Source of the DNA: Neelides folsomi
Taxonomy: Eukaryota; Arthropoda; Collembola; Neelipleona; Neelidae
Length of the DNA: 64,000 nt
Direction of reading: 5' to 3'
Assembly: GCA_034687125.1 (NCBI GenBank)
Contig: JAQGBZ010000168.1
Location: 62,001-126,000 of the forward strand
A program made the translations under genes and the position numbers. The stretch's first letter is position 1; each line of letters opens with the position of its first letter. Of the stretch, positions 33,528 to 35,297 are shown piece by piece. A model generated the notes under the pieces. It saw only the letters and a list, made by a program, of their open reading frames with translations. It ran no database searches and was not told where the DNA came from.

Positions 33528-35297
33528 TCAACAAACAAGACGATAGGAAATGTAACGCCCAGCAGTTTCTGATGGACGAATAATCTTCACGACCTAAAAT
33601 TACACATTACTTAAATTAAATGTTTATTGTTAAAATATATAAATATCTTATTAATAAACAACATTATCAAATTATAATTTTAGAAGAAAGAAGAAAAGGA
33701 AATCATTATGGTTGTGGGAATTGTGGAATCTATGATTTCGCCAATAATAAATACCTGGCCTCTTTGAAGGCCAAAATATCTTGCGACTGGATCGGATTGT
33801 TGAATTCTTGGCAGAAAGTGTTCTTTAATTCGACTTTATAAATAAGATTTGAATTTATTTTGCTGGATTAAGTAATATACAAAAGACAAACAAATTCGCT
33901 GAATTTGTTAACATTAAGTTAAATTCAAATACCAAAACACAAATCCCAAACAAAAAATTTATAATTTTCTATCATTTTAAAAGTATGAAGTCAAATCAAT
34001 TAGAATTATAATGGACTTTGAATTATAAATAATTTTAGGTAAGTTCTAAGTTCTAACAATTTGATAATTGCCTTTGTTAGAAAAAACGTTCAGGGGTTTG
34101 ATGAGTTAAAAGATTAACAGGTAGAAAGTCAAAATTTAAAAATATTAGAAAAGGTATTAAAAAGATAACACGAACCTGGCCACGCTTGAGACCAAAGTAG
34201 CGGGCAACAGGATCACCCATTTGAATTCTCATTAGTTGGTTCTCTTTCAATTTACTATTTTTGAAAGTTAACAAAACAAGTTAATACTTTTAGTTTAAAC
34301 AATTTCAAATTAACACGTTTGATTAGTGAATTAAATGTAATTTTAATAGAATCATATTCATACTATCTTGTAAGAAGTTCCTGCTTCTCTTCTGGAGTCA
34401 TTACAACATGTTCTGGAACCAATTCGTGTTCCGTAATGTTGATCAAAAGTTCAGACTCGAGAAATTGTTCCAGGATGTACTTGGGGGCCATATCGACTAA
34501 TGACTAGAAAAAATAATATTTATGTATATGTATTATTGAATTAATAAAAATTAATTAATTATTAATTAATTTAAATTGTTTAATTTTTGAATTAAGAATA
34601 AAACAATGTAAAAATAAAGTACCTGTTTAGCACTTGGAGTCATTCCAAGTTGAACAACAATACAAGCTCGGTGGATATTTTCTTCTTGCATTCTTTGACA
34701 ATAAGTCTTGATAGTTTTTATTCCGATCTTTGGCTCTTCAGGAAAGAAAACGAACATTTGATCTAAAGAAATTAAAAGTTCATTACAAATAGAAACATTA
34801 AAGGTAAGTATCGTTTTGGACTATAAAATATTCTTAGGAAGTTATTCTTTTACCAGTTGGGTCGTCATTATGAGCTACAAGGACAATTAAATCTGCTCGG
34901 GTGGGCCGACGCTCACTAAAAATAAATAATCATTTTTTTAAAATAAAAATCCTAAATTGATATGAGAAGTTGTAATTTCTGGGAAATTATTGTTATGAAA
35001 ATCCCTTAAATTATGAATACCTTGGCTTATCACCAAACTGGTCTTTAAATTGATCTATAGTTTGATCCAACTCGTCTTGAGTGACCAAATAACCACGATC
35101 ATGGCAGAGCTATAAAATAATAATATGTGTTTTATTTTTAATTATATTATATATTTATTATTTTCATTTTAGATTTATCTAAATCTTATATAAATAGAAA
35201 ATATCTTTTTGTTTTAATTAGATAATTGTTTTATATGAACCTGCATGATGGTTTTTCGGACTTTCCATAATTTATAAACTTCTGATTCATCGTCCAT
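33528..35297 (-). CDS. RPB5: DNA-directed RNA polymerases I, II and III subunit RPABC1 (RPB5)
   Basis: Seven coding exons per transcript: 35297-35241, 35109-35021, 34915-34854, 34762-34623, 34503-34364, then one of two alternative exons (34254-34176 or 33833-33755), then 33593-33528. The product is 210 residues, the same as human RPB5. It begins [19 protein letters not shown], has the N-terminal jaw domain ([19 protein letters not shown]) and [15 protein letters not shown] region (here [19 protein letters not shown]), and ends with the assembly domain shared with archaeal subunit H ([13 protein letters not shown], then [20 protein letters not shown]). RPB5 is a core subunit of all three nuclear RNA polymerases and contacts the largest subunit near downstream DNA. 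Several donors are weak (GTTCAT after exon 1, GTTCGT after the first alternative exon). The gene is divergent from POLK. Identity is certain; what is unusual is the duplicated penultimate exon, listed separately. Confidence 0.98.
33755..33833 (-). other. RPB5: second, alternative copy of the RPB5 penultimate coding exon
   Basis: This 79-nt block on the minus strand is flanked by an acceptor (TTTATAAAG) and a donor (CAG/GTATTT). Read in the phase left by the previous exon it encodes [12 protein letters not shown], then [14 protein letters not shown]. The exon at 34176-34254, also 79 nt, encodes [12 protein letters not shown], then [14 protein letters not shown]. Eighteen of 26 residues agree. 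From the shared Asp onward 12 of 13 residues agree, and 8 of those 12 codons differ only silently. Including both exons gives TCG AAT TAA right after the first; skipping both creates TAG at the junction. Only one or the other leaves the gene readable. This fits mutually exclusive splicing; an unused but conserved relic is less likely. The two lie 342 bp apart. Confidence 0.85.

Follow-up and report, generated by a model that had tools for sequence, protein, structure and literature searches.

Two candidate mutually exclusive versions of an RPB5 exon in the springtail Neelides folsomi, and similar exons in insects

The gene for RPB5 (POLR2E/RPABC1) in the springtail Neelides folsomi contains two neighbouring versions of its sixth coding exon, 6a and 6b, which very probably act as mutually exclusive protein-coding exons, alternative by splicing, a reading drawn from the genomic sequence. 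A subunit common to RNA polymerases I, II and III, RPB5 is regarded in animals as a single fixed part; if a conserved swap in its docking module is true, splicing can set the composition of the core polymerase, and two isoforms with distinct tryptic peptides offer a testable handle on the question of specialised polymerases in animals. The window analysed here is a stretch of 64,000 nt, contained in a contig (C168) of 130.8 kb within an assembly of 75.1 Mb and 840 contigs. Another contig of the assembly, C742, has about the length of a mitochondrial genome (15,157 bases, of which 4.3 kb were read) and carries COX1; translated by the invertebrate mitochondrial code, this protein is 93% identical to P0210, while ranks 2-37 of its matches, at 79-82% identity, are Collembola or clusters with broader labels. 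In the window the RPB5 gene (gene A) is intact on the minus strand, with seven coding exons per message of 57, 89, 62, 140, 140, 79 (6a or 6b) and 66 nt, placed as follows in window coordinates:

35241..35297, minus strand, exon 1, 57 nt, start ATG
35021..35109, minus strand, exon 2, 89 nt
34854..34915, minus strand, exon 3, 62 nt
34623..34762, minus strand, exon 4, 140 nt
34364..34503, minus strand, exon 5, 140 nt, last bases the TA of the split Tyr163 codon
34176..34254, minus strand, exon 6a, 79 nt, 26 residues, usual arthropod form
33834..34175, minus strand, intron between 6a and 6b, 342 nt
33755..33833, minus strand, exon 6b, 79 nt, 26 residues, alternative form
33528..33593, minus strand, exon 7, 66 nt including the stop TGA

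Both versions of exon 6 are bordered by AG and GT in identical phase. Exon 5 ends at 34364 with the donor AGATA/GTATGA; exon 6a has the acceptor ATAG/T at 34254 and the donor CAG/GTTCGT at 34176, exon 6b the acceptor AAAG/T at 33833 and the donor CAG/GTATTT at 33755, and exon 7 starts at 33593 behind the acceptor TTAG/G. Inclusion of 6a alone or of 6b alone yields a coding sequence of 633 nt for a protein of 210 residues, while inclusion of both reads RGQ-Ser-Asn-stop, the stop being codon 192, and skipping of both creates a TAG at the junction of exons 5 and 7, after 162 residues. The initial annotation of this DNA had the coordinates, lengths and phase-compatible frames of the two exons right, and its statement that only exclusive use yields full-length protein was reproduced in each of these cases. 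In the passages of PMC3228551 that set out how mutually exclusive exons are recognised by WebScipio, three sequence properties are named, namely similar length, compatible splice sites and frame, and homology, and judged by the letters of the two exons all three are present in the 6a/6b pair; the unproductive outcome of joint inclusion and of joint skipping, which the pair also has, is a property that we added and does not come from that source.

Splice sites were scored with a small leave-out matrix built from gene A and from a second RPB5 gene (gene B, below). The donor of 6b scored 9.6, against 0.25 to 10.46 for the 12 other donors in this small sample, and its acceptor 1.56, against −5.95 to 11.31 for the 12 other acceptors, likewise a small sample. 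The donor of exon 5 (ATA/GT) is the lowest-scoring 5' splice site in each of the two genes (0.99 in A, 0.25 in B), and such a low-scoring donor may allow regulated choice of the next exon. These weak donors are located at 34358-34366 of the window in gene A and at 4456-4464 of L011 in gene B.

The two exons agree in 18 of 26 residues. From the Asp onward 12 of 13 residues are identical, eight of those 12 through a different synonymous codon; both counts had been given exactly in the initial annotation, along with the suggestion that both copies are under purifying selection, which the site counts bear out. Among synonymous sites, 14.3 out of 16.8 differ between 6a and 6b, and among nonsynonymous sites 16.7 out of 61.2 (Fisher test on rounded counts, p = 1.2e-4), an excess carried by the final 13 codons (p = 1e-6) and not significant in the first 13 by themselves (p = 0.24). 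In 20,000 simulated runs 6a was left to change free of selection until it shared 47 of 78 bases with its starting sequence, as 6b does with 6a; no run retained 18 identical residues (7.9 on average and 14 at most), and a stop codon was present in 78% of runs. Since nonsynonymous change is far below synonymous change, and neutral runs were never comparable, the substitution pattern indicates that both exons are under protein constraint, maintained by purifying selection. That 6b is a duplicate exon out of use and decaying we regard as highly improbable: eight of its 26 residues do depart from the usual form, and its acceptor ends in AAAG where the 12 others in genes A and B end in TAG (11) or CAG (1), but its frame is open, its length exact and its splice sites retained, its changes are overwhelmingly synonymous, and it has counterparts in insects. 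Nor does the peptide fit its domain less well, the Pfam Rpb5_C score being 120.7 bits with 6b and 119.1 with 6a. Both PF03871 and PF01191 are above their curated cut-offs (27 and 23.5) in the 6a isoform, the 6b isoform and gene B (117.8-120.7 bits). The Pfam C-terminal domain has 73 residues, to which exon 6 contributes 26-27, so that where the initial annotation had the two exons encoding versions of the assembly domain, this holds for part of the domain and not for the whole.

With the 6a form of RPB5 as query, a six-frame search of the whole 75.1-Mb assembly found, among the matches listed, exon-6-like stretches in three places: 6a, 6b and an exon of a second RPB5 gene. The gene with two versions of exon 6 described in the initial annotation was confirmed; outside the stretch on which that annotation was based, the genome also holds a complete gene B on the plus strand of another contig (C389; L011 3319-4866, G000:C389:17818-19365). 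The seven exons of gene B are equal in length to those of gene A, and there is a single exon 6; no second one appeared among the matches listed, and exon 6 is followed by an intron of 173 nt. Across exons 1-5 the two genes differ at pS 0.83 and pN 0.026, and because silent sites are near saturation at so low a pN, gene B is best read as an old paralogue and not as an allele; on the same figures it is strongly constrained. The exon 6 peptide of gene B is identical to that of 6a in 26 of 26 residues, with 14 of 16 synonymous sites changed. Thus the 6a peptide of gene A has been kept identical although gene B encodes an equal peptide, which argues that 6a is still needed, and this pattern suggests that gene A has been selected to make both forms. 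The existence of a second RPB5 gene, in an assembly of 840 contigs, could also point to an assembly artefact, or to a piece of the other gene copy set in an intron. We give this practically no weight: 6b is not a misplaced copy of either 6a or the gene B exon, since just 47/78 and 49/78 bases, respectively, are identical, and a dragonfly gene model, described next, has the identical arrangement.

The initial annotation had held that a second copy without conservation in relatives would count against it. Similar exons are present in protein models from three insect orders, which to the extent of those models speaks in its favour, and they may share a common origin with 6b of the window. The 120 best matches in each of two protein searches, out of 1870 in one and 778 in the other, comprise 209 different RPB5 proteins, of which three have an insect-type second exon 6, one holding two copies and two carrying the insect type; exon boundaries in all three are deduced from the protein models. 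The 252-residue model of the dragonfly Ladona fulva (P0002) reads 6a, then 16 residues, then a second copy of exon 6, in the same 6a-before-6b order as the window gene. Its 42 extra codons equal 79 + 47 nt, and a Ser precedes the second copy, as an AG acceptor followed by T or C would read; the second copy would thus fit a 79-nt exon stretched by the gene finder to preserve frame. In the planthopper Lycorma delicatula (P0015) and the katydid Anabrus simplex (P0202), both proteins named 'isoform X2', a 6b-like segment lies exactly at exon 6, replacing it by a version with Pro171 and Arg186; the rest of P0015 is canonical, and P0202 is cut at the N-terminus. Against a reference set of 28 proteins (chosen for 210 residues, KLK at 164 and Met171), mean identity of P0015 is 64% inside exon 6 and 88% outside, showing that its departure is confined to this exon; the 6b isoform of the window has 68% and 88%, and the references among themselves 90% and 87%. 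Insects having 6b-like exons, as these models imply, is new here, and with similar second versions in species of three orders, the exon swap may be old and functional. Clustering of the protein database at 90% may conceal second isoforms, since the two forms within a species are more alike than this threshold, so that the missing of 6b-like forms elsewhere means little. A horseshoe crab protein in the same set (Tachypleus tridentatus, P0045) is called 'isoform X1', a numbered isoform in a cluster of two sequences.

The insect isoforms also bear on whether 6b is mainly a poison exon, whose co-inclusion or competition with 6a tunes the level of RPB5 through nonsense-mediated decay, with its peptide of minor importance. 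Its length of 79 nt is not divisible by three, and the Ser-Asn-stop of joint use is what such an exon would provide. Yet a poison exon needs no kept peptide, whereas 6b retains its 18 residues with silent sites near-saturated, and P0015 and P0202 contain the 6b-like segment without 6a. We consider this role for 6b improbable, and exclusive use of 6a or 6b as coding exons remains our preferred reading.

Two positions distinguish the forms. All four 6b versions (Ladona, Lycorma, Anabrus and the window) have Pro171 and lack Lys186, whereas the usual arthropod form has Met171. The exon 6 segment could be read in 207 of the 209 listed proteins, with Met171 in 38, all of them with Lys186, and Pro171 in 169. 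Those Met171 proteins that bear a species name come from 15 species among those listed, which we take to be arthropods throughout (insects, crustaceans, mites, a scorpion, a horseshoe crab, a sea spider and a millipede), and Met is also found at 171 in the solved chain 9mu7 ('RPB5 homolog'), presumably from Drosophila. Pro171 is present in Priapulus, Ramazzottius, Branchiostoma, molluscs and echinoderms and is the general animal state. Nor is its combination with Arg or Gln at 186 private to 6b, since 39 of the 207 listed proteins share it, many of them nematode and some fungal. Among the named arthropods listed, we noticed Pro171 in four, two insects (Lycorma and Anabrus) and two barnacles (Pollicipes and Amphibalanus). 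At exon 6 the barnacle proteins P0025 (Pollicipes) and P0061 (Amphibalanus), together with P0116, read LPRIQ..LRRGQ, which resembles 6b and not the other named arthropods; to judge from these proteins, barnacles may have retained a 6b-type exon only.

The 6a/6b pair probably predates the split of springtails and insects and has a single origin, judging from the residues that the exons share, while trees of 27 residues do not settle the origin. Pro at the 6b position that is Met in 6a, seen in four lineages, makes a single duplication the simplest account. We compared five hand-made topologies for 21 sequences. With all 27 sites, the best places the duplication on the arthropod stem and groups barnacles with 6b (lnL −301.1, AU 0.911), followed by the arthropod stem without that grouping of barnacles (−310.2, AU 0.013), springtail 6b outside all (−313.5, AU 0.099), the hexapod stem (−317.9, AU 0.078) and independent duplications (−320.3, AU 0.064), four of these five AU fits, including the last, being flagged by the program. 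Removal of site 171 shrinks the gaps to the best tree to 3.1 for the arthropod stem without barnacles, 1.3 for springtail 6b outside, 3.1 for the hexapod stem and 3.9, from 19.2, for independent duplications, and hence the order of the trees is mostly driven by this site. With sites 171 and 186 both removed, the best tree has springtail 6b outside the other arthropod exons and insect 6b beside insect 6a, at gaps of 1.2 to the arthropod stem with barnacles, 1.9 to that without, 1.9 to the hexapod stem and 2.7 to independent duplications.

It follows that a separate origin of the second exon 6 in the springtail lineage and in insects, by convergent duplication, deserves some weight, although we think it unlikely; it concerns origin alone and is compatible with alternative use. 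The 6b of the window lacks the residues N164, T175, I179 and C/S180 of insect 6b, all four of which (with C180) P0015 and P0202 share, and the tree without sites 171 and 186 that fits best parts springtail 6b from insect 6b. The all-site tree of independent duplications is not rejected at 5%, its flagged fit included, and trails the hexapod-stem tree by just 2.3 lnL units; much of its distance to the best tree disappears with site 171, at which Pro is the general animal state. On the other side, origin from a Met exon would require Met to change to Pro each time, by at least two base changes, with all four 6b ending at Pro171; the same exon is affected in the same 6a-6b order in Ladona and in the window; and independent duplication is the worst of the five topologies in every run (AU p = 0.064, 0.008 and 0.0004). 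Placing a single origin as far back as the arthropod stem, over 500 million years ago, it is tempting to speculate that 6b keeps the animal Pro171 while 6a changed to Met, that barnacles have the 6b type only, and that many arthropods build two stable classes of nuclear RNA polymerase, which differ in RPB5 docking on the largest subunit, under the control of splicing. We hold this fuller scenario to be doubtful.

We take 6a and 6b to have arisen by tandem duplication of one exon and both to have been retained by purifying selection, and the spliceosome would connect exon 5 with one or the other of them. Messages that contain both exons or neither would be lost to nonsense-mediated decay at their early stop, and since both kinds carry such a stop, exclusivity would be enforced at least partly by frame. 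The intron between 6a and 6b is, at 342 nt, the longest of gene A (the remaining introns are 91-161 nt), which rules out steric exclusion through a short intron. Arms of 27 nt and 81% complementarity flank 6b (33632-33658 and 33835-33861) and were rejected as an exclusivity device; we ascribe them to AT-rich chance, because duplexes of the introns (5, 6a-6b and 6b-7) are no stronger than those of dinucleotide shuffles, the best being matched by 53, 78 and 34 of 200 shuffled pairs.

According to the account of RPB5 in PMC6690254, the partner of its C-terminal module is a fold conserved among Rpa190, Rpb1 and Rpc160, a four-helix bundle on the largest subunit of each polymerase. The swap would alter eight of 26 residues in this assembly module, which docks RPB5 on the largest subunit of polymerases I, II and III, and may tune docking or assembly. 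A cell could then contain two grades of RPB5, possibly differing in docking, stability or partners, and by extension two kinds of polymerase. In an AlphaFold model of P0015 (mean pLDDT 89, with blocks over exon 6 at 88-91), exon 6 sits between a helix ending at 162 and a strand starting at 190, and forms a short turn, a strand pair at 172-173 and a helix at 178-183.

Mutually exclusive exons are a well-known kind; a pair in RPB5 is one for which we found no earlier description. The initial annotation likewise knew of no described case, and a search of the open literature for RPB5, POLR2E or polymerase subunits with exclusive exons or splicing, in which near matches were judged by title and the start of the abstract, turned up none among the matches listed, while two insect isoforms were already in protein databases. 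The clusters of the dynein heavy chain, muscle myosin heavy chain and Dscam treated in PMC3228551 resemble the present pair in having neighbouring homologous exons of equal length, phase and splice pattern that encode an equivalent structural piece; RPB5 differs in being a small housekeeping subunit of polymerases I, II and III, and exclusive use of its pair in transcripts is a prediction from sequence. More than one RPB5 per organism is also described in PMC8721170 for plants (NRPE5) and in PMC6690254 for trypanosomes (RPB5z). As presented in PMC8721170, one plant form is specific to Pol V, and the plant forms are separate genes, whereas in the present case 26 residues of the assembly module would be exchanged within a single gene. 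The insect cases make the exon swap testable by RNA-seq from Ladona, Lycorma and Anabrus.

Gene A is divergent from a gene for a Y-family DNA polymerase, presumably POLK-like (window 35700-38262, plus strand), with IMS_C and IMS_HHH within 37087-38262, and about 400 nt lie between its apparent start codon and that of RPB5 as judged by eye; just upstream of gene B, on the opposite strand, is, also judged by eye, a glutathione-peroxidase-like gene.
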